Source of the DNA: Siphonodentalium dalli
Taxonomy: Eukaryota > Mollusca > Scaphopoda > Gadilida > Siphonodentaliidae
DNA: 64,000 bases
Reading direction: 5' to 3'
Assembly (NCBI GenBank): GCA_032622095.1
Contig: CP136069.1
Coordinates: forward strand, 121,758,126-121,822,125
The stretch's first letter is position 1. Each line of letters begins with the position of its first letter. The notes beneath the pieces were generated by a model. The model was not told the origin of the DNA. It was given only the letters and a program-made list of their open reading frames with translations, and made no database searches. Position numbers and translations under genes: made by a program. Positions 10,015 to 58,392 of this stretch are shown here, one piece after another.

Positions 10015-10320
10015 GACACAACATACATTCGATACAAAACAACACAACATCCGTTCAGTGGGGAAATCACTTGCACGAATGCGTCACGACCACGGAGGAG
10101 ACCTTGTTGTGGATAATGATAAGACTGGTCTGAGAATGGATTGAAATTATTTGTCGGACGTAACACCTCCAGACAAGTGATCCATTCTTCTGTTACATGA
10201 TATTTGCGCGTGTACATGTACTTTTTAAATTGAGTATCGAATACGACACTATCAATTATATACTCGTAATATAAGCGTATTGCGCATAAGCCCAATAATA
10301 AAGCCCCGATGCGTTCTGAA

Positions 10321-10720
10321 TTAACCCTTTACCCAACAAACCGGCCAAAACCGGCCAAATAAAGCTTCAACAGCCTAAAATATCTTCGGTCTGTCTCAAT
10401 AGAACCATACAAATATGGATATCATTGGAACCGGCTCCTTGACCACATTGTGATAGTTACAGTTATGCCCTGTGCCAATGCATTCTCTTATATATGCGAG
10501 TCGACCATAGGTCGCCTCGCATATATAAGAGAATGCATTGGCCTAAAAAAAATCTTTTTTTAACACTTTTTACCATTTTTTCTTACATTCTTTAACAATT
10601 TTATAATTTTTAATGAGTTAAGCCAATGCATTCTCTTATATATGCGAGGCGACCTATGGTCGACTCGCATATATAAGAGAATGCATTGGCACAGGGCCGT
10701 TCTGTTGGGTAAAGGGTTTA
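10321..10720. mobile_element. TTAA-flanked 392-bp MITE, copy A
   Basis: The element 10325-10716 has terminal inverted repeats CCCTTTACCCAACA and TGTTGGGTAAAGGG. It is flanked by TTAA on the left and TTTA on the right, a slightly decayed TTAA duplication as made by piggyBac- or Kolobok-type transposases. Inside are two 69-bp palindromes (10474-10542 and 10622-10690) in opposite orientation, separated by A/T-rich sequence, so the whole right half folds into a compound hairpin. It is about 99% identical to copy B at 25270-25661 and has the same length. Confidence 0.92.
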
Positions 10721-16699: not shown

Positions 16700-17197
16700 A
16701 GTGGTCCTGCTAATGTGCTATGGTGCGGTAGGGTCATGATGGATTGCTATGGTGCTGTTAGGGCAAACTGATGCTGTTAACAAAAAGTACCGTTATATTT
16801 TTTAATTTGTCTTTTTCGCGGTGTTCCGATAATCTGAACATATCCAGGAAAAGCAATTATGCGTATGAAACATTCAAAAATATATTTATTGCGAAATATA
16901 TTTAATACTGGCTGTATTAGTTATTGAAACTCGACTATAATCAAGAAGGTTATTGACGTCGTTTTAGAAACACAAACGTAGGCGTTAGTATATTTTTTTC
17001 AAAAATAGATATGTTCTTGAATGTTTCATAGATACACTAATTTTTTCTAAAATCTCTCGGGATTAGCCAAACAACGCGAAACTGACCACTTTAGAAAAAA
17101 TAATGGTACTTTTTCGTAACGGCATCAGTTTGCCCTATACCCGCGTCATATCAAATCAGCAGGGCAACCAGTATAATAGTATATTAGCAGGACCACT
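16700..17197. mobile_element. 498-bp TIR element (AGTGGTCCTGCTAAT ends)
   Basis: It begins AGTGGTCCTGCTAATGTGC and ends with ATTAGCAGGACCACT. The two halves are long imperfect inverted repeats (about 200 bp): AAGTACCGTTAT, TTTTTCGCGGTGTTCC and TGAAACATTCAAAAATAT on the left, their complements on the right. Related half-elements sit at 32140-32336 and 33268-33480. No open frame, so it is non-autonomous. I could not define a target duplication. Confidence 0.85.
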
Positions 17198-17493
17198 AGC
17201 AGGGGGTGAAAACATGCGTCTATGTCGTAACTCCTGATAATGTTCGGGGACCATTGTGGGTATGAACCACAGCCCTTGGCAGGAATGACTCAACGCAGCC
17301 TATCTGATACGTTTGTCACATCTATATAGTTTATGTTTAATTTAATATCTAAAATTCAATGCATCCGGTGATGTGCTTAAGCGATTTCCTAAAGCTAGAT
17401 TTGAAGTCAATTTAATAAACCGACCCTTGAATTTAATTGCACGTCAAACAGCGAAGGTCATAAACGAATTGAACATGGTATGTGTACAGGTAT

Positions 17494-17946
17494 AGGTTAC
17501 ACTGGTGTAAATATTTCCCATAGGCTTCAATGTTAACGTTTGTTGATCTGCATCAGAGGTCAAATGGAAACTGTTCAAACTGCCTTCGGATTATGTGAGC
17601 TTGACATCTGTGGAAACTTTCCCAATAAAAAAATCAACACCGTCTAGCAGGGAATCCACTTCAAATTTTCGTTTTTTCATGACTAGGGTCAGTTCCGCAC
17701 TAAAAAAATATTGTCATTTTTTCAATCACACTTAAAATTTCTAAACAGCCACAACAGACTTCACCTTTAATGAATGGGCCTCTTGGCAAATGAAGTTTGT
17801 GGGAGAATGATTCCTTGAATTTTTGTCAACAGTTTACATTTAATTCATGCAACCAATCACAGCCCAGAGTGTTTTAACTGTGAAACTCTATACTCCTCCC
17901 GCAACCGCAGGGGGAGCTGGCTATAGTATTTACACCAGTGTAACCT
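17494..17946 (+). repeat. left 453-bp direct repeat with its own TIRs
   Basis: Starts AGGTTACACTGGTGTAAATA and ends with the exact reverse complement of those 20 bases, so it resembles a complete MITE. Each end contains a 14-bp dyad: TTACACTGGTGTAA at 17497-17510 and TTACACCAGTGTAA at 17930-17943. These are good candidates for transposase-binding sites. The inner junction continues as TAAAGG. No open frame. Confidence 0.93.
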
Positions 17947-18883
17947 AAAGGGCCATGTGGCCTTTCTTCATATTTTTTGTGCATAACCCATTGTGAACCT
18001 TGATATATACCTATAATTATTAAACTGATGTTGTTTTAAAAAAATGTGTTTTTAATGCCATGTGACCCTTTAATTGGAACCCACCCAATAATACACCCAT
18101 TCAGAATAAAAAGCCAAAATGCAGGTTGGATTTGAGTTTAATTTAATAATATGAGGCATCTAATAAAGCATGAGAAGTTATACCACATTCATTTGATCAG
18201 GTTTTCACTTGGCTTTCATCTGTTGTGTCCCATGAATTTAATTTCTCCACAGGAACAGATATGCACAGGTTTCATTTAACCCTATGCAAATCAGCTGCAG
18301 ATTCACACAAAAAATGCCTTTACTTTGAAAAATAAATAGTGTGGAGGGTTCATTAGTCAGTAAACTTGGCATAATTTTGAAGAACAATTACTACTTGTCC
18401 CAAAATCAGAAAAATTAAGTGGAAAATTATTTAAACAATGAGCTCAGACAAGGGTGTTTTAACCCTGGGTCAGGTGAATTTTCCTGATTGAAAATGGTGC
18501 TAAAATTTGTAATGTCTGCTGCAATCCCAATTAGAAGGAATCCTTAATCTATTGTCTCACAGTATCAAATGTCGTTAACTAACATTGGACAGGGGGTGCC
18601 AATGATGAGGTTATAATGACAACATGTTCCTTCAGCTGATAAAGTAGTAATATATCAACAGATAAGATGGCAGACATTTTCAAGCATCATTAATTTCAAA
18701 ACTCCTTAAAAGCAAGGTGCTGATCTCAGAACGGTTAGTTGTCATCATTTCTCGAGACAAATATCATTTCTCATTGTAAAAATTCTGGAAGTTGTATATT
18801 CGCGAGAAGAATTTTCCAAATTAATGCTGTTAATGTGACAGAGTTGTTGAGTGGATTTTGGAATTTGTGAGGACTGTGAGACA
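17947..18883 (+). other. transposon 5' leader, no ORF
   Basis: 937 bp between the left repeat and the first ATG of the transposase. It begins TAAAGGGCC, whose first six bases are mirrored by CCTTTA just before the right repeat. No open frame of note on either strand. An in-frame TGA at 18848-18850 closes the transposase frame upstream. This stretch or the left repeat must hold the promoter; I see no unambiguous core elements. Confidence 0.5.
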
Positions 18884-21483
18884 ATGAAGTTTACATTTGA
18901 TAATCCCCTCAGATTCAAACCAGGACACAAACAGTTGTATAAAGCCAAGCGAGAACCATATGTGGATAACAGAGTAGTGAAACATTTACGCAAAAGAACG
19001 ATCATTACATCACTGGACATTCTCGAAAAGCCAAACTCTGTGAGAGCACATCAAACTCGGTCTGCTGCAAACAGTCTTAATCCAAGAGGGAAGGGTCAAT
19101 CTGACAACAAAGAGCCTGAAAGAAAAAATGAAAGGTAAACATCTCTCACAATATTCCATGCAACAAACAATGTTATATGCATGTTCTTTTCATCATATAG
19201 ATAAGAAATAGGGGGGGGGGGTATGAAATTCAGCATTATAATATCAATAAACTAAACATATATTTGATCTTCTCAAATCAAGTGTATGACTTTAAAATCT
19301 TTTTTCAAAATCTTGGCTGTGTCCTCCTGCATGACAACAAAAATTAATTTGACATGCCCCCATCCCTCTGTGTGCAGGAAATGATTTGAAAACTGTACCC
19401 TGAGTCAAAACACAGGTTTTCAGCCTAATAATTTGCAGATAGAGTTACTCCCCTTATTCTGTTCATATGAATTGGGTCACTAATTGCAAACAGCACAGGT
19501 ATAACATTGCTTTGCATGCAGATATATATAAATTAAATTGCAGCACTGAGTGCTTTAGTTTACTATTCATTCAAAGGACTGTTTGGAGCAGGCAGTGTTT
19601 TTAAAGAAAAAAAATATCTCACAGTTAGACCGATATGTATGTACCTTTAATATATATGGTTCAAAGAGTAAAATTTAGGATTTTACTTTTTAATTTTCAG
19701 AAATGATAGCCCAGACAAGAGATGTGTCAGTGGTTGGCAATGCGAATGCGGATCAAACAGGGTGGTCAATATACGCCGAAATGCGATGATGTGGAACTCT
19801 TCCTTCGAAAAACATAGGGCATATAAACCCACGTGTACAGGATTCCTATACTGGGACATGAACGCTGAGGAAATTCGTGGAATTGGATGTAGAGAGAAAA
19901 TGATTTGCACGTGTTGTGATTTTAGATCTGAAATTTTCAACCTGTATGATGAAATTATAACAGGGAACCCTGGCAGGAGACCAGCAAAACCAAATGTTGG
20001 ACTTTCAGTCGGATTATCTAAAACACCCATTGCAGCAGGAGGATTCAGACGCATATGTGCAAGTGCTAATATTCCCCCGCCAGCCGAAAAGTCAATTCAG
20101 AGCACAGCAAATAAAAGTTTACCAAAAATTGAGGAAATAAATAAAAAGGATCTCCGAGAAAGACGTTCGAAACTCATACATAAACAACAAACTGATGGAA
20201 AGAAGAGTCCACATATCATCGACGCACAGGCAGATGGACTTTATAATAATCCGATTTATTCTGGGTGTGGCAGAAACCCATTTCAACCAAGCACTCAAGT
20301 TATATACAGTGTTGTTGAAAATCTAACGCCGTCACATGACATTATTGGACTTGTGGTGCACAACAAGCTTTGTTCGAAACGCAAACACCTGAACAAATGT
20401 GATAATCACACATGTGGGAAAGACTGTTTCGCAACGATTCCATTTGAGAAGAGCATCGGCGATGAGAGAACATGGGCGAAAGAAGCATTTGGTGAAATGA
20501 AAACCAATAGCAATATCGAGATTGGTCACCTTGTTACTGATCCCGATGCAGCGGGCTTCAAAGGCTGTGAGGATCTCTATGACGAAGGAGCAACAGCGAC
20601 CAGACCAACTCATCAACTGGACTCAGCTCATGTGTCGAGAAACCATCGGAAATTCATCAAAAACCATAAGACGCTGCCAACTCTCATCGCTGGACCTGAC
20701 CTAAAAAGCAAATCAAAACTGATAAATAAACTCGCAATGAACATTTCTGATCGATGTCAGGGTGAATTGACATCTGCGGGAAAGCATTTCAAAGCCAACG
20801 CTGAAGGAATGAAGAAACATTTACTGAATGTGAAAGAAGCAATAGTGAAGTGTTTCCAAAACTCCCATGTTATGTGTAAAAAATACTCATATCTGTGCAA
20901 GGGAACGAAAAAATCCAACTGGATCGTTAAAAATGAAACTGTGCTAGGACCCAAATTTACGATCAATAAAACTTCGGACTGTTCGGATATTCTCACGGAG
21001 TGTGTTGACTACAGACTGTGTCCACAAATGATTGACAAGACTTTTCTTGGCATGAACACGCAAAAAGCCGAGGCATTCAACAGAGCAATTCGGGTATCTC
21101 TGCCCAAAAATGTGACATTTACCCGAAATGTTAGTGGGCGTGCACATTCAGCTTGCCATTCCACAAATGTAGGCTGTGGGAATTCCATATCTGTGTTGTG
21201 TAAAGAACTTGATTGTGAGATTCACCCAAGATCAAAAGTGTCCAAAAGACTTGCAGCAGTGCAGAAGGCTGGAAATGACTTGAGATCATATAAAATGACC
21301 AAAAAGTCCAAACGGGCAAGAGTGGACAGGAGGGCAAAGTTATATGCTCTCTACGACAAACATAGTGAGGAAATTGCCTATCAGAAGGATATCATGATTC
21401 CACCTGAAGCATGTCCCAAACAGTTAAAGGAACACACATACACTAAGTCATCCAAGTGGAAAAGGGTTAAACCAAGGAGGTGA
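18884..21483 (+). CDS. Mutator-like DDE transposase, two exons
   Basis: Exon 1 is 18884-19134 and exon 2 is 19701-21483, joined in frame through an AGA codon to give 677 aa. The start ATG is the first in frame after the TGA at 18848. A GTG at 18851 would add 11 residues but is unlikely in an animal gene. The protein resembles the Mutator-like transposases common in mollusc and cnidarian genomes. It has a Cys-rich N-terminal half (CGSN and ICTCC around 120-155), then ADGLYNNP with candidate first Asp at 262. Next come an SIGDE block and VTDPDAAG with the second Asp at 364, followed by a Cys/His cluster (C468, H473, C476, C483). The last motif is TQKAEAFNRA with Glu at 541, followed by SLPKNVTF and GRAHSA. 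The C-terminal tail is Lys/Arg-rich. The DDE residues are inferred from spacing. No internal stop or frameshift. It should excise and integrate the element by binding its ends. Confidence 0.88.
19135..19700 (+). other. intron of the transposase gene (566 bp)
   Basis: Donor AAAG|GTAAAC at 19134/19135 and acceptor TTTTAATTTTCAG at 19700, with a pyrimidine-rich tract directly upstream. Splicing removes an in-frame TAA at the donor and continues the frame into the exon 2 codons upstream of 19762. It contains a G run near 19211-19220. Confidence 0.85.
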
Positions 21484-21503
21484 AATGTACCTTTCTCTTT
21501 AAC

Positions 21504-21902
21504 TCAAATCAGACAAAAGGGTCTATGTGCCCTAGTGCAATATTTCTGTCCCTCGCAATGGCGTCGTTCAACATTTTTTTCATGGCTTTCCATAACAATG
21601 TGGTCGGGATTTACACATGTCTTCCTATGGCATATGTGACTAAGTTCGAGGCTGCCAGGGTAATAGGCGGGTGGAGACATCGCGAGTCTGTGTTTTATGA
21701 CGAATGCTATTCGGTGGACACCCCAATCCTTTCTCGGCTGACCGGGCTCAGAATTATAACTCGAAGGGAACTTGACATATAAATATCCATAACCGTCCTT
21801 TCTTGTCCGACCTGTCCAAACGCGACAGTCGAACAACCCCTCAAATCTCGATTTTTCGGATAATTTCGCATTGTAAAAATCATAAAATTGACTCTCCTCC
21901 AT
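21504..21902 (-). CDS. I-PpoI-like His-Cys box (HNH) endonuclease
   Basis: A complete 132-aa frame, ATG at 21902-21900 and TGA at 21506-21504. The core motif starts LSHICHRKTCVNPDH. The spacing matches the I-PpoI His-Me finger family: catalytic His89, zinc ligands Cys91, Cys96 and His101 (with Cys26 as likely first ligand), and Asn110 exactly 21 residues after His89. The second zinc site is Cys116, Cys122, His126 and Cys130. GVHRIAFVI around 61-69 is typical of the strand before the active site. The family makes metal-dependent double-strand cuts at long sites. The gene is convergent with the transposase, 20 bp away, and starts 80 bp from the right repeat, which may supply its promoter. All catalytic positions are kept, so it looks functional. 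Whether it aids transposition, acts as a selfish homing nuclease or has been tamed is unknown. Confidence 0.88.
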   Translation of the reverse strand: MEESQFYDFYNAKLSEKSRFEGLFDCRVWTGRTRKDGYGYLYVKFPSSYNSEPGQPRKDWGVHRIAFVIKHRLAMSPPAYYPGSLELSHICHRKTCVNPDHIVMESHEKNVERRHCEGQKYCTRAHRPFCLI

Positions 21903-21982
21903 GTTTATTCACTTGTATGACTTAAATGTGTGTTTAAAAATTGGATTTGGGACATGCTATCAGGAACTGGATAAATACCTTT

Positions 21983-22435
21983 AGGTTACACTGGTGTAAA
22001 TATTTCCCATAGGCTTCAATGTTAACGTTTGTTGATCTGCATCAGAGGTCAAATGGAAACTGTTCAAACTGCCTTCGGATTATGTGAGCTTGACATCTGT
22101 GGAAACTTTCCCAATAAAAAAATCAACACCGTCTAGCAGGGAATCCACTTCAAATTTTCGTTTTTTCATGACTAGGGTCAGTTCCGCACTAAAAAAATAT
22201 TGTCATTTTTTCAATCACACTTAAAATTTCTAAACAGCCACAACAGACTTCACCTTTAATGAATGGGCCTCTTGGCAAATGAAGTTTGTGGGAGAATGAT
22301 TCCTTGAATTTTTGTCAACAGTTTACATTTAATTCATGCAACCAATCACAGCCCAGAGTGTTTTAACTGTGAAACTCTATACTCCTCCCGCAACCGCAGG
22401 GGGAGCTGGCTATAGTATTTACACCAGTGTAACCT
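21983..22435 (+). repeat. right 453-bp direct repeat with its own TIRs
   Basis: Same sequence, length and orientation as 17494-17946; I found no difference reading them side by side. Dyads at 21986-21999 and 22419-22432. Preceded by CCTTT and followed by ATATACAG, so the flanks of the two copies differ exactly at the repeat borders. Confidence 0.93.
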
Positions 22436-24536
22436 ATATACAGTATGTTGCCTATTTGTGGATTTGATTTTGATTTTAACCATTCCACTTCGGGCGCTAG
22501 ACTTTGCCGTCAAAATATATAACGTGTCTGGCATCACGCTTGCGGTGTTACACATAGTCGAATGAGTAATTAGTGTATTATATAGGCTATCACGCACACG
22601 AGAAATACTCGATAACTTCCGTGTTTGGTATGTGAGTTAGTAGCTATGTGTGACAGATGCGCACTATATCTGGCTCACTCCAAATGTCTTATGAGGGTTA
22701 TGGCCCTTGTTCTGTTTATAGACGTTTCAGGACCTTTAGCACAATGACTTGAAGAAACGTCAACCGATTCCATTCGTATACTATTTAGTATATACACACC
22801 AGCCAGTATAGGCATACCGTTCTTTCACAAGTGACACCTTTCGCATTGTGAATTACTACTGCTAAGAAGTATATAAGCTATATATTATAGCTATTATATT
22901 GTAGCTTATAGTAGTCGTAAATTTGTCCAACAGTCCAAAATCATTTTCGCAAACTTGACGACTACGAGTACATTTGTGAGAATATAGAGTCTTTCAAACT
23001 TCTTGCCACTCATAGTAAGGTTATATAATAATGCTTGCCATGATTACTTTGTACTTAACTATATTGTTATCGGGTCATAGTCAGTGTCAGGCGCGATGAT
23101 AGCATGTCAAGCTCGCGTGCCCATGCTTGGCTGCTGGGAATCCTAATTACCGATATGACAAAACAGCAACTGATAGGCAGATAGAATTCCGAGATATGGA
23201 AGACAACAGATGTGGAGAGAAAAGACAGAGTTACTGAAAACAAAACACAAAAGCATGAAGTAAACATGAAGTTTATGGAACGAAAAAAAGAAAAGAAACC
23301 ACACTAAGTAAGATATTTAGACCCATTAATAATTTATATACACATTATATGCTCGTTGCTCTATAAGTGATTTATCAATTTTAAATTTACCTTTTTAACT
23401 AATTTATACTATCGTTATATGTATTAGCCGACCGAGTTGTCAGTATTTGCAAAGGCCTGATTTGATAGTGCAATTAAATCACCCTGAAGAAAAAAAATTC
23501 AGACTTTGTAGATGAATATGTTTAGAACAACATACTAAAAGTCCTCCAAGAATCCGAGGTGAGCATTTTATGCAATAGCAATTTCAACGAGTTGCATATT
23601 TCAGTGAAATTAAAAAATATGAAAAATGGTCGGAGAGTGTTAAGATGGTCACTGTTTATCACAGTCAGTTATATTTTATTTATAATTATTGATTATGTGT
23701 GGCCTATAATTATTTTAAGGAAAAAAGGTATGCGCAACTTATGCCAAAAATAAGCCGAAATTGTAAAACAAGATCTCAAATTTCAATAAAAATTACAATT
23801 TGCAAAGAAATGTTTGGACCAATGAGACTTTATTATTGTTTATATGTATATTAGGCATTCATAATGTTGCCAAACCATTTTGAACTCGAACAGCTTGTCA
23901 TTTGTTTGAAATATCAACAATAACCGAATAAATTGTAAGAGGTGTAAAACTCATTTTCAAAATATTTCATTGTCTTAACAGCACGACATTAAGATTGTCG
24001 AATTAGCGAATAAAGAATATCGGTCGTATATTTAAATGTATTCTGACGATGGTTTAATGCGGCTATTATATCCGGTGGATTTAAACATTCTGTCGTTGAG
24101 CAATGGCGAATCGAAATTCAAATTGTGAGCAAACAACAGTCGTGTGCCTGTTTTAGGTCTCGGAACGACGGGACAATCACTATTCGACCAGTCTTGCGAT
24201 ATATTTCAACGGTGTAACTCTACAGTCAAATGTTACCTGACACGAGTTTTTGACAATGCTGGGAATCCCAACATACAACAAGCGGGATGAGAAATTCAAA
24301 ATACTATTTCATTAACAACATACTGACATATATCAGCACTTGTACCTAAATACCATATACCCAAATGATCATACATGCAATTGGTCTCTTAGCAAAATGT
24401 GCATAAAAACATTATAGTCTCGTCTTACCCACATTTAAATTGAACCGAAGTTTATGACATTCAAATTTGGGTGATTTGGGTACAAGCAGACTGAGGGTTG
24501 ACTAAACCCATCCTTTAACTCCAAAGACACTCTACG
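22436..24536. other. no gene recognised
   Basis: Low-complexity AT-rich sequence, including TATA/AGCTA runs near 22865-22915. A 64-codon frame at 23559-23753 (+) begins with GTG and has one hydrophobic stretch (SLFITVSYILFIIIDYVW) but no other support. I do not call it a gene. Confidence 0.45.
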
Positions 24537-24664: not shown

Positions 24665-25265
24665 TTTTTTTTTTCAGAGATTGGTTTGGTTTGTTTGGAA
24701 TAATCGTGTTTTCAGCCAGATTAGGATGTTGTTATGAAAATCATAAGACACCACACACAATTTAACTGAAAGGTCACTCTGGTGCATCATGCAGGGAATA
24801 ACCAGCCCCCAGTAAGAAACTGACAAACTTGCATGAATTATTCAGAGATCCAGACTTAGTGTTTAACACCATATGGATATCAGAAAAATCTGCTTCTGTG
24901 ACAGTCGTGGTGTGAGAACTAGAGGGAAAGACAAACATCAACTTGAGATTTCAAACGTCCGGTAATCCGCAAAACAGATGTGGTAAACCACTTATAGCAT
25001 GCTCCACAAGTACTCTACATTATTCTTAAACTAAGCATTCAGCATTTAAGTCCACTGCATGATCATATCGACAAGTATATTGCTAACATGAAAAGGGAAT
25101 ATGTGCCAGTCCCTATATCAAATACTTCATGACAATCAGCAGCCATTCCAAGAGCCGTTCTTACAATTAAAGACATATCGTGAGCTCATTTCAGTGAATC
25201 CAACTGCATGGTAAGTCAGCACGCATGAACTTTACTAACACCAAACATGTAGCATTTAACTTCTA
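24665..25265. other. no gene recognised
   Basis: Plain AT-rich sequence up to the MITE at 25270. No open frame of note and no repeat structure that I can see. Confidence 0.4.
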
Positions 25266-25665
25266 TTAACCCTTTACCCAACAAACCGGCCAAAACCGGC
25301 CAAATAAAGCTTCAACAGCCTAAAATATCTTCGGTCTGTCTCAATAGAACCATACAAATATGGATATCATTGGAACCGGCTCCTTGACCACATTGTGATA
25401 GTTACAGTTATGCCCTGTGCCAATGCATTCTCTTATATATGCGAGTCGACCATAGGTCGCCTCGCATATATAAGAGAATGCATTGGCCTAAAACAAATCT
25501 TTTTTTAACACTTTTTACCATTTTTTCTTACATTCTTTAACAATTTTATAATTTTTAATGTGTTAAGCCAATGCATTCTCTTATATATGCGAGGCGACCT
25601 ATGGTCGACTCGCATATATAAGAGAATACATTGGCACAGGGCCGTTCTGTTGGGTAAAGGGTTAA
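25266..25665. mobile_element. TTAA-flanked 392-bp MITE, copy B
   Basis: Element 25270-25661 has perfect TTAA on both sides (25266-25269 and 25662-25665), termini CCCTTTACCC/GGGTAAAGGG and the same two opposed palindromes as copy A at 10325-10716. I count only three or four base differences over 392 bp, so both copies are young. Non-autonomous; the transposase that moved it (piggyBac- or Kolobok-like, from the TTAA target) is not in the window. Confidence 0.94.
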
Positions 25666-32139: not shown

Positions 32140-32336
32140 CGAGTATATGTGTTCTTGAATGTTTCATACACACAATGGTATTTTTTTCTCAAATCGCTCG
32201 GGTTAGCCGAACAGCGCGAAAATAACAACATTAAAAAAATAACGGTACTTTTTCGTAACGGCATCAGTTTTCCCTACTCGCATTATAGCAATTGAGCCGG
32301 ACCACCAGCATCATAGCATATTAGCAGGACCACTTG
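32140..32336 (-). mobile_element. half of the AGTGGTCCTGCTAAT TIR element, tip facing right
   Basis: GTTCTTGAATGTTTCATA, CGCTCGGGTTAGCC, AACGGTACTTTTTCGTAACG and CATATTAGCAGGACCACTT match the right half of the element at 16700-17197. The tip ends at about 32334 and directly abuts the satellite. Confidence 0.8.
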
Positions 32337-32339
32337 AGA

Positions 32340-33004
32340 AGGGGTGATATAGTGCGGCGATGTCTACCCGGTCGACGATCACGTACAAGAGCCGGCCTGA
32401 CTGTTGAGCCTCAATCGGTAAACTACCTGTTTGACGACCACGTGCAAGAGCCAGCCTGACTGTTGAGCCTCCATCGGTAATCTACCTGGTCGACGACCAC
32501 ATGCAATAGCCGGCCTGACTGTTGAGCCTCAATCGGTAAACTACCTGTTCGACTACCACATGCAATAGCCGGGCCTGACTGTTGAGCCTTAATCGGTAAA
32601 CTACCTGTTCGACGACCACATGCAATAGCCGGCCTGACTGTTGAGCCTCAATCGGTATACTACCTGTTCGACGACCACATGCAATAGCCGGCCTGACTGT
32701 TGAGCCTCAATCGGTATACTACCTGTTCGACGACCACATGCAATAGCCGGGCCTGACTGTTGAGCCTCAATCGGTATACTACCTGTTCGACGACCACATG
32801 CAATAGCCGGGCCTGACTGTTGAGCCTCAATCGGTAAACTACATGGTCGACTACCACATGCAATAGCCGGCCTGACTGTTGAGCCTCAATCGGTAAACTA
32901 CATGGTCGACGACCACATGCAATAGCCGGTCTGACTGTTGAGCCTCAATCGGTAAATAACCTGGTCGACGACCACGTGCAATAGCCGGGGCTGACTGTTG
33001 AGCC
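32340..33004. repeat. 59-60-bp satellite, about 11 copies
   Basis: Unit: TGACTGTTGAGCCTCAATCG, then GTAAACTACCTGTTCGACGA, then CCACATGCAATAGCCGGCC. Copies differ by a base or two, and by one extra G in GCCGGGCC that alternates the period between 59 and 60. The open frame on the minus strand is a by-product. Confidence 0.95.
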
Positions 33005-55734: not shown

Positions 55735-58392
55735 TAACTCTATGAAAAGAAAACCAAGCCAGTCGTGGTTTGCAAAACGACTGCAGGTCGGCCCGAACGC
55801 GCTTCAGGAAGACCCGCCGATTATTCAAACGTGAACCAAACGTTACTAATAAGTGCGCTATGTTGGCAAGCCGAACAAACTATAAAATGGTTCTTTTGAG
55901 AAGTAGAAAACGCCACAAACGAAACATAAGCTGTACAATACATAGGCTGCGCACAAGATCTAGCAAAGATTTCTGGAGTTTCATCAGGAAACTTGACACA
56001 AGGGGGCAGGGGAAACCCACCCCACCTCAGAAATATTAAAAAATCATTATAAATCAGAAGGGGCTGACCATCTAACAATGGGAGATACTATATTGAGATC
56101 CGATTTATCTAGCTCATTCAGCTCACTTATCGCACCCTCGTCGGATTTTGAAGGACTAGATACCAACTTTTTGAATGGAAATATTTCTTTACAAGAAATT
56201 TAGGCAGCTGTTAAAAAACTTAAATATGGGAAAGCAGCAGGGTATGATGAAATGGCCAACGAATACATAAAATCGTCATTCGACATTTTAAAACATATTT
56301 TAGTAAAGTATTTCAATCTGATTCTGAAGACAGGCCTCGTTCCGAGGGAATGGACTACATGTATAATTAGGCCGATATATGAACGACTTAGACCCAGATA
56401 ACTACCGCAAACTTACCCTTCTGAGCTGTTTCGCGAAATTATTTACCAGCATAATTAGTGAGCGAATCGACTCTTTTGTAGAAACAAATAGTATACAGTC
56501 GGAGGCGCAGGCCGGGTTTCGAAAAGGATATTCTACGATAGACCATACGTTTGCACTTCACGCGTTAACGCACTTACTTAAAGCTAATAAGAAAAATCTT
56601 TACTGTGCATTCGTTGACTTTTCAAAGGCATTTGATACGGTGTGGAGAGTAGGACTTTGGTCAAAACTCCTTAACTACAGAATTAGCGGTAAAATACTGA
56701 CAGTAATAAAAGCTTTATATCATGAACTTAAACTATTTGTTCGCCTTAATGAAGACGAATCCGACGATTTCTACAGCCATGTTGGCCTAAAACAGGGAGA
56801 CAACCTCTCACCTCTGCTTTTTGCCACCTACATCAACGACATTGAAGAATACCTTAACTCACAAACAAATTGTGCATGGCATCAGCTTAGATAAATTCTG
56901 TGGAATTGATACCGGTATATTACTGAAGATAATGTTACTTATATATGCCGACGACACTGCATTGCTTTCTGATACACACGAAGGCCTACAGTGAACATTA
57001 AACTCCTTCTCAGATTACTGCAACATATGGAAATTGAAAATAAACACGACAAAAACTAAAGTCGTCGTTTTCGGCCCGAAACCCAGAAAGAAAAAAACTA
57101 TACCAGTATTCACACTTAATAATCTTCCAATTGAGATAGTTGATAGTTATAAATATCTGGGGACAGTTTTCCACAAAAAAGGTACGTTCGTAGAGGAACG
57201 AAATCTCAGATGTAAGGCAGCTAAAACTGCAATTTATGCACTTATGAACAAATCACGCTGCCACAAACTCACAATTGAATCAATTCTTGAGATATATGAG
57301 AAAAGCATCATACCAATAATGACTTACGGGGCTGAATTATGGGGACATGGAAATATGAGATGTTTCGAAAAACTAGAATCCTGGTTCCTGAAATTTACAC
57401 TGAATATGAAGAAATCTACACCATCCGTGTGTATATACGGGGAACTAGGAATGTACCCAATTACAGTTAGGATCAAAACCCGCTACATCGGTTATTGGGC
57501 AAAAGCTATCTCAATGCCTACCCATAGGACCCCACTTATGTTATATTATGTTATGTATACTCTGTATTGTAAAAATGTTTTTAATAATCCATGGATAAGA
57601 GGAATACATGACTCCCTTATTGCAATTGGTATGAGTAATGTTTGGCTCAACCAGAGAGTATCGAGTATAGACCGATTTAACCGGACCGTTGAGCAAAGAT
57701 TACGCGACTGTTACCGTCAAAGTTGGTGGTCAACAATATCCACATCGAGTAAATATGCATTTTATAGAATTATTAAAACACACTCCGAACGTGAACAATT
57801 TCTCTCTATATGTGATAATAGAACTGTCAATACTATCATTCGATTTCGGACAAGAAATCACAAATTACCAATTGAACAAGGTGCTTGGCTAAATACTGAC
57901 TATTCAACCAGAGTATGTACACTTTGTACGAAAGAACTAGGCGATGAGTATCACGTTATCCTGAAGTGTACAGAATTAAATGAACTCAGATCGACCTATT
58001 TGAAACCATACTTCTATAGAAGACCGAATGCACACAAACTCTCGGAACTCTTTAATAATATAATACTAGAAATAGAAAGACTATTAGGAATCTGTCAACT
58101 TTCATAAGGAAAGTCCAGGATATTTTCGGCAAGTCCACTTGAGGCTATAACACTGATATTCCACGAACCCACCCCTATTTTCTAAAAGACCTATACACAT
58201 CCCTGACTACAAAGTCCCCGAACACAATAACTGAAATCATCACCCGAACGGAAACTTACCAAATATCTAATAATGCTCTCATGTATTCCTCGGGTGAAAT
58301 TTATTGTTATTATGTCAAATTTGAATATCTTGATGTTATAAATAATGTTTCTGTAATATCCACATATTGATGAACAGAATAAACTGAATCTC
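55735..58392 (+). mobile_element. 5'-truncated LINE (non-LTR retrotransposon)
   Basis: The region holds the endonuclease-RT linker, the reverse transcriptase and the C-terminal domain of a LINE of the general CR1/Jockey-related type, but no endonuclease domain. The 3' UTR runs to about 58392, ending near GAATAAACTGAATCT. Truncation at the 5' side is usual for target-primed retrotransposition. The coding frame is broken several times. Confidence 0.85.
55770..58107 (+). pseudogene. LINE ORF2 remnant (reverse transcriptase)
   Basis: Linker with SQSWF and a basic stretch at 55750-56040; typical KKLKYGKAAGYDEM before the RT core. RT motifs: QAGFRKGYST, FVDFSKAFDTVW (near 56610-56650), GLKQGDNLSPLLF, then YADD at 56944-56955. 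After the RT, the C-terminal frame 57034-58107 is intact for 357 codons. It carries a CCHC-like knuckle, C-x2-C-x8-H-x4-C, around 57928-57970. Breaks: frame changes near 55775, 56025, 56375 (with a small deletion) and 56880, a TAG at 56201-56203 and a TGA at 56992-56994. Family assignment beyond non-LTR is uncertain (CR1-like or Nimb-like). Confidence 0.9.

Follow-up and report, generated by a model that had tools for sequence, protein, structure and literature searches.

What kind of transposon has long direct repeats at its ends, resembling the long terminal repeats (LTRs) of retrotransposons, and carries both a DDE transposase and an I-PpoI-like nuclease between them? This question is raised by a stretch of 64,000 nucleotides from the scaphopod mollusc Siphonodentalium dalli (assembly GCA_032622095.1, contig CP136069.1, positions 121,758,126 to 121,822,125 of the forward strand; hereafter the window), where an element of this kind lies at 17495-22434. 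The element is almost certainly an intact autonomous KolobokP transposon, young and recently active. An earlier note on this DNA had known of no described family with this combination of features; the same architecture has been published as KolobokP by Kojima and Bao in 2022 (Mob DNA 13:24; PMC9587614), with 228 families in 7 animal phyla, especially in bivalves. What was observed at the locus is confirmed; the claim of novelty does not hold, since the element belongs to a KolobokP family, a young one that is largely intact and has long tandem arrays.

Published KolobokP elements have long terminal direct repeats (LTDRs) of ~450 or 660 bp around an internal region (INT), and the LTDRs carry their own inverted repeats of up to 18 bp with RR...YY ends (PMC9587614). 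A DDE transposase is encoded on the plus strand and an I-PpoI-like nuclease downstream and antisense to it; target duplications are of 3-5 bp, and both solo LTDRs and multimers occur. The lineage was placed in the Kolobok superfamily, with a C/DxxH signature in common with MuDR (PMC9587614). Among the papers listed in a literature search, judged by titles and the openings of abstracts, there was no second description of this architecture. A study of bivalve transposons (PMC10294476) names Kolobok, and neither 'homing endonuclease' nor 'terminal direct repeat' is a term used in its main text.

Organization of the element

The window element is complete, with a length of 4940 bp, an LTDR-INT-LTDR arrangement, and a target-site duplication outside it. 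The left LTDR (17495-17945) and the right LTDR (21984-22434), both on the plus strand and 451 bp long, have the same letters throughout, with 0 differences. Strict identity extends over 455 bp (17493-17947 against 21982-22436), and 451 bp is the length once the repeats are trimmed to their GG...CC ends; the apparent identity first reported for these repeats stands, and the length given with it, 453 bp, does not. Each LTDR also has its own perfect terminal inverted repeats (TIRs), previously put at 20 bp and here 19-21 bp long (19 bp when counted from the GG...CC termini): the LTDR starts with GGTTACACTGGTGTAAATA and ends with the reverse complement of GGTTACACTGGTGTAAATA. Between the LTDRs lies an INT of 4038 bp (17946-21983, plus strand) with 6-bp inverted ends, TAAAGG...CCTTTA. 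The 8-mer CCTTTAGG at the right INT-LTDR junction (21978-21985) recurs inverted as CCTAAAGG at 17944-17951. Reading of the flanks gives the sequence TATA on both sides of the element, at 17491-17494 and 22435-22438, as the two copies of the target-site duplication.

The transposase gene has two exons on the plus strand, at 18884-19134 (83 codons plus two bases, with the GT donor at 19135) and 19701-21483, joined across a GT...AG intron with the frame kept, and the spliced product is an uninterrupted protein of 677 aa; the splice sites are those read from the DNA sequence alone. Exon 2 contains the Mutator/Kolobok-type DDE domain and matches Pfam PF20700 (E=3.4e-48), and the Pfam scan gave no match for exon 1. 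In the spliced protein, the motif residues are D262, D364/D366, D391xxH394, and E541, with a cysteine/histidine (C/H) cluster of C468, H473, C476, and C483. These residues are invariant or nearly so in a 12-row alignment, and their positions in the motif point to which aspartates are probably catalytic. Among 28 related transposases that were found, two have a species name, both of them unclassified bivalve predictions: one from Mytilus trossulus (53% identity over 68% of the query) and one from Saccostrea cucullata (43% over 77%). Searches for the transposase in viral contigs and in plasmids found none.

The nuclease gene is convergent with the transposase gene (21902-21504, minus strand), the two stop codons facing one another with 20 bp between them. 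Its uninterrupted open frame encodes a His-Me finger (His-Cys box) endonuclease of 132 aa that matches Pfam PF05551 (E=2.9e-13), a model of the zinc-binding region of homing endonucleases. Comparison with the I-PpoI chains in the PDB gave E=5e-4 for the single sequence and E=3.5e-4 for a seven-sequence profile, and residues S88, H89, C91, C96, H101, E105, and N110 align with S97, H98, C100, C105, H110, E114, and N119 of I-PpoI. With C26, C116, C122, H126, and C130, there are eight C/H positions in total; two zinc sites have been described for such positions in the KolobokP nuclease (PMC9587614), and they are putative zinc ligands here. One diverged nuclease copy (L084) lacks C91. The window nuclease is a putative site-specific enzyme, with the residues expected of a His-Cys box homing endonuclease. 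A search among 5.8 billion proteins gave no relatives at E <= 1e-3, with 4 candidates only, and none was found in viral contigs. A structure predicted from the single sequence had a mean predicted local distance difference test score (pLDDT) of 35 and was set aside as useless. An intact spliced DDE transposase facing an intact His-Cys nuclease, as the earlier note had described, is what the element encodes.

Copies in the genome

The genome assembly that was searched has 9 contigs and totals 2.23 Gb. It contains 934 exact occurrences of the opening 30 bases of the LTDR, compared with 0 for the reversed pattern, which shows that they are not there by chance. In 689 of the 934, the LTDR start is preceded by CTTTA, the end of INT, which leaves ~245 outer ends, a figure in which mutated inner ends are counted as outer. 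LTDRs of the window element's family (family A) follow CTTTA in other contexts at only 6 places, one of them the copy L042, so few further types of INT use this LTDR.

The transposase search scored 74 of 693 candidates, with 75 rows among the matches listed, and for the nuclease 150 of 444 candidates were scored and listed. A convergent nuclease match lies within 1 kb in 71 of the 75 listed transposase matches, and at exactly 27 bp in 54 of them; this pairing drew on some of the 150 nuclease rows, so that 71 is if anything too low. Four rows are unpaired: a copy that is broken off (L036), two on contig C3 whose surrounding 1 kb holds no nuclease match, and an upstream piece of a split match. 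The 75 rows represent 45 loci, of which 38 have a single row. Among 20 loci examined in full, there are 22 full-length INTs, with the transposase frame kept in 19 and the nuclease frame in 21. It follows that the pair of genes is not peculiar to the window: they are repeated neighbours, and further full copies as well as a solo LTDR (L039) accompany them in the same genome. On contig C9 (23152960-23165746), three nuclease-bearing units have a spacing of ~6197 bp, ~1.7 kb over the usual 4489-bp unit.

Target duplications and solo repeats

A perfect 4-bp target duplication, of varied AT-rich sequence, is present in 19 of the 22 insertions with both ends read. Examples include TATA/TATA at the window element, TGAT and TTAT at two trimers, and TGAA/TGAA at the solo LTDR; three multimers of a non-autonomous relative are also among the 19, one of which has 22 LTDRs within TATA/TATA. 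The 22 insertions leave out L036 (right end missing), an array on contig C8 (right end beyond reach), the longest array on contig C1 (both ends inside the array), and copies of a second family (family B), for which right ends only were fetched. The termini of the element are thus GG...CC, bordered by 4-bp duplications.

These insertions bear on whether the locus might be an accident, with unrelated transposase and nuclease genes caught between two independent copies of a miniature inverted-repeat transposable element (MITE). Each LTDR does resemble a complete short inverted-repeat transposon, and the solo LTDR has a duplication of its own; the recurrence of the whole LTDR-INT-LTDR at many loci with outer 4-bp duplications, and of both genes together in 71 of the 75 listed transposase matches, refutes this explanation and leaves it next to no probability. 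The element is a single mobile unit, composite-like as the earlier note had it, whose LTR-like repeats are themselves MITE-like.

The length of the duplications is also relevant to classification. MuDR elements have target duplications of 8-11 bp, and those found here are of 4 bp. It is therefore very improbable that a Mutator (MuDR) element captured LTR-like ends here, even though Pfam calls the PF20700 domain 'Mutator-like transposase'. The term 'Mutator-like' that had been applied to the transposase keeps its basis in the name of that model; the published lineage of this architecture is classed in the Kolobok superfamily, and the 4-bp duplications agree with KolobokP (PMC9587614).

In the mechanism that we propose for the KolobokP element, the DDE transposase would recognise the inverted repeats with GG...CC ends and insert the element with a 4-bp duplication; the duplications are observed and the catalysis is presumed. 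Because each LTDR carries two such ends, LTDRs could also move or stay alone, and the solo copy may have arisen in this way.

Selection on the nuclease

Pairwise ratios of nonsynonymous to synonymous substitution (dN/dS, Nei-Gojobori) between the window nuclease and each of 11 diverged copies in its lineage that have open frames range from 0.14 to 0.38; the copies were picked for their open frames and the window copy is the partner in all 11, so the comparisons are not independent. Synonymous changes are nevertheless in large excess: one pair, for instance, has 20.5 synonymous and 13.5 nonsynonymous differences over 80 and 313 sites. These ratios show that the nuclease is kept by purifying selection. 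Furthermore, the nuclease of family B, 41% identical to that of the window over the aligned part and with synonymous sites saturated between the two, keeps an open frame and the active-site residues. Purifying selection and an intact frame in two families that are only 41% identical indicate that the nuclease is useful to the element. The words 'synonymous' and 'purifying' are absent from the main text of PMC9587614.

The earlier note had supposed a division of labour, with strand transfer by the transposase and a site-specific cut by the nuclease. This idea, in the form of transposition plus nuclease-induced unequal crossover, was already in PMC9587614; the cutting itself is a prediction.

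Tandem arrays and a non-autonomous relative

Copies of the element also occur in tandem, as (LTDR-INT)n-LTDR. Within one trimer the INTs differ by 0-1 events, and within the other by 0-2, and each trimer unit has at least 4 differences from any unit examined at another locus; single loci differ from one another by 2 to 21. Trimer units are closer to each other than to other loci, and therefore arrays seem to grow in place, or to be copied as arrays and then homogenised. Longer autonomous arrays include 8 units with 4495-bp spacing on contig C2 (178.17 Mb) and 13 units with ~4040-bp spacing on contig C8 (164.87 Mb). The latter was at one stage read as an INT-INT tandem without LTDRs, a reading that was dropped when LTDRs were found at the four junctions and both edges that were fetched; its units are ~450 bp shorter than usual. 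Near 3.2 Mb on contig C3, a further 15 transposase rows are clustered, and their genes are partly incomplete.

The non-autonomous relative was read at locus L031 (C1:26561200-26569000). Its LTDR is 99.6-99.8% identical to that of the autonomous element, and its INT has 902 bp and no nuclease gene. The two INTs have no significant similarity (the best hits, at E 0.13, are at chance level) and are alike at their ends, which start with TAAAG and finish with CCTTTA. The 100 LTDR starts listed out of the 934, all on contig C1, include 11 clusters with a spacing of 1352-1354 bp (at least 3 LTDRs in 10 of the clusters), which were assigned to this one relative by their spacing, the internal sequence being that of L031 and the ends of one further array. 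The longest listed clusters have 25 and 22 LTDRs, and the run of 25 extends past the ends read. A 1353-bp period is seen at three places: L031 has a run of 4 LTDRs, C1:158645709-158678210 one of at least 25, and C1:225049434-225078297 one of 22; array copy numbers depend on the assembly. These arrays are an apparent transposon-born satellite, and their length suggests a direct route from transposon to satellite-like DNA.

To account for such arrays, the His-Cys nuclease would break the DNA site-specifically, either in an LTDR or at one, and the break would be repaired from a neighbouring LTDR that is out of alignment, so that LTDR-INT units are gained or lost and tandem arrays form within one outer duplication. 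The arrays and their local homogeneity are direct observations, and the nuclease is their suspected cause. Long identical repeats can, though, recombine without help, and ordinary unequal crossing-over might make both the arrays and the solo LTDRs with no part for the nuclease. That a relative without the nuclease gene forms the longest arrays fits ordinary exchange, that is, no nuclease action at all, and equally fits action in trans. The nuclease is, however, under purifying selection and intact in two families that are 41% identical, and autonomous LTR retrotransposons, although their direct repeats are long too, form no multimers (PMC9587614); we consider it unlikely that the nuclease plays no part in the arrays.

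Another route to arrays would be integration of an LTDR-INT circle at an existing LTDR (model 5b of PMC9587614) in place of unequal exchange induced by a chromosomal break. The outer target duplication would then stay as it was, in keeping with what is observed, and IS26-like precedents are cited in the same paper. The close relationship of units within each trimer favours local amplification, though a locally excised circle would give a like pattern, and we consider integration of circles a possible if less favoured source of the arrays. The role of the nuclease could be studied well in this family, whose repeat copies number in the hundreds, are near-identical and largely intact, and lie in a genome assembled into 9 contigs.

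The INT-LTDR junction as a candidate cut site

If the nuclease cuts within its own element, the INT-LTDR junction C-TTTA-GGTTAC (21979-21989 in the window) is a candidate site. Of the 11 positions in the core of the I-PpoI site, CTTAAGGTAGC, 8 are the same in the junction sequence CTTTA|GGTTAC (a binomial chance of 0.0012 in a single fixed register); for the whole I-PpoI site, as given in PMC6294500, the figure is 9 of 15 (chance 0.0042). I-PpoI leaves 4-base 3' overhangs, TTAA (PMC9587614). This likeness suggests the INT-LTDR junction as the place of cutting. In what we take to be the register of the I-PpoI cut in its site, a cut here would fall exactly at the GG end of the transposon.

Several features of the INT ends are relevant. 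They are TAAAGG...CCTTTA in the window family and TAAAGC...GCTTTA in family B, where the sixth pair has changed at either end in a matched way, as it would if symmetry were being preserved between the two families; in the non-autonomous relative the ends are TAAAGC/CCTTTA, with the sixth pair unmatched, which counts against strict symmetry. In the clam family KolobokP-1_MeMe, the INT ends are TATA...TATA (PMC9587614), in contrast to those found here. Three other sequences, TTAATG, TATAGT, and TAAAAT, also recur behind the family B LTDR, a junction read in the 17 of 53 rows with readable letters; each is found at two places, and they are thus probably further INT starts, seen at one end each. 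With these counted, all 6 of 6 classes have inner 4-bp sequences of the form TWWA, compared with 4 of 19 outer duplications (Fisher P=0.0012), where the classes are partly related by descent, three of them are tentative, and the pattern was noticed after the fact.

These observations can be combined in a model in which the nuclease cuts INT-LTDR junctions (C-TWWA^GG), the edge of the 4-nt 3' overhang being the transposon end, and in which an I-PpoI-like enzyme was taken up on account of an existing likeness between its ancestral site, CTTAAGGT, and a Kolobok end (TTAA target plus GG terminus). If true, transposase and nuclease would share one end sequence, and the matched inverted INT ends and the TWWA preference at inner, not outer, junctions would be accounted for. 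We regard the model as improbable as it stands. Ordinary Kolobok elements insert at TTAA and have RR ends (PMC9587614), so part of the likeness to the I-PpoI site comes with the superfamily. Several degenerate copies are without the motif: among 14 diverged nuclease loci that were fetched, 11 have a readable junction and exact CTTTAGGTTAC is present in 5 of these, with substitutions in the others. As the 11 comprise 9 degenerate copies of family A and 2 of family B, they provide few independent points. Moreover, an enzyme that cuts its own element would be unlike ordinary homing, and PMC9587614 proposed cuts within the LTDR or at abutted LTDR ends. A near-palindrome in the TIR, TTACAC-TG-GTGTAA, was also considered as the nuclease site; family B lacks the inner part of the dyad (TTACAGTGAAGTAA) and a near-palindrome was present in 155 of 20,000 base-shuffled TIRs, and it is kept as a weak lead.

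Other repeats in the window

Rfam and tRNA scans of the window gave 0 matches. Just left of the element, an inverted repeat at 16759-17137 has 47-nt arms that are 87% complementary and is probably another MITE. The sequence at 17006-17226 is 80% alike to 32144-32364, which adjoins a tandem array (32364-33004) of a 59-bp unit with 10.8 copies and 93% matches. Direct copies of 399 bp at 10320-10718 and 25265-25663, 99.2% identical, 14.9 kb apart, and unlike the LTDR, are largely self-complementary (~80% in the inner part, 10467-10697) and look like a separate young MITE. A probable remnant of a non-LTR retrotransposon at 56367-58107 has one frame with a reverse-transcriptase domain (PF00078, E=4e-24), followed downstream by a second frame of 370 aa with no Pfam match.

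Comparison with known systems

The structural features of KolobokP that were compared are all present, with small departures. The direct repeats, of ~450 bp in that lineage, are here 451 bp, identical, and recurrent in the genome, and their own TIRs (GGTTACACTGGTGTAAATA and its reverse complement) begin and end with GG...CC, within RR...YY. The DDE transposase has the C/DxxH motif between the second D and the E, as well as the C/H clusters, and a His-Me finger nuclease with I-PpoI-like residues lies downstream on the complementary strand. The 4-bp duplications in 19 of 22 insertions lie within the 3-5 bp, with no strong target sequence, of KolobokP, and solo LTDRs and (LTDR-INT)n-LTDR multimers both occur. 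Arrays are longer here than in the text and table examples for KolobokP, with 22 LTDRs within one duplication and a run of 25 whose ends are beyond reach.

Some points weigh against this assignment. The window element, at 4940 bp, is longer than KolobokP elements of the Pacific oyster (4,022-4,748 bp), and its TIR of 19 bp exceeds the published maximum of 18 bp (PMC9587614). Three of the 22 insertions (L042, L048, and L050), all monomers with both LTDRs, have no target duplication; each has TTTA directly left of its left LTDR, and no match to their left flanks was found within 1.5 kb among the ends of the non-autonomous INT, the autonomous INT, or a nearby LTDR. The longest arrays belong to the relative without a nuclease gene, and the assignment itself is one by structural features. 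What may be new here is modest: selection on the nuclease, homogeneity of trimers in place, and a candidate cut site.

To our knowledge, KolobokP is the only DNA transposon lineage with both long direct terminal repeats and a homing-type endonuclease. The nuclease has the aligned S, H, C, C, H, E, and N residues and the set of eight C/H positions of I-PpoI and the His-Cys box homing endonucleases, and differs from I-PpoI in residing in a DNA transposon and not a group I intron, and in having 132 aa compared with 163 in the PDB chain. LTR retrotransposons and terminal-repeat retrotransposons in miniature (TRIMs) also have long direct repeats and solo repeats, with tandem arrays in TRIMs (a comparison made in PMC9587614); the window repeats, however, end in GG...CC with inverted repeats and not in TG...CA, the enzyme is a DNA transposase, and no Pfam match to a reverse transcriptase was found in the three element frames scanned (the two transposase exons and the nuclease). 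Bacterial composite transposons and IS26 pseudo-composites, compared with KolobokP in the same paper, likewise have two mobile repeats that flank genes and move alone or together; in contrast to them, the transposase here is in the INT and not in the repeats, and belongs to another family.

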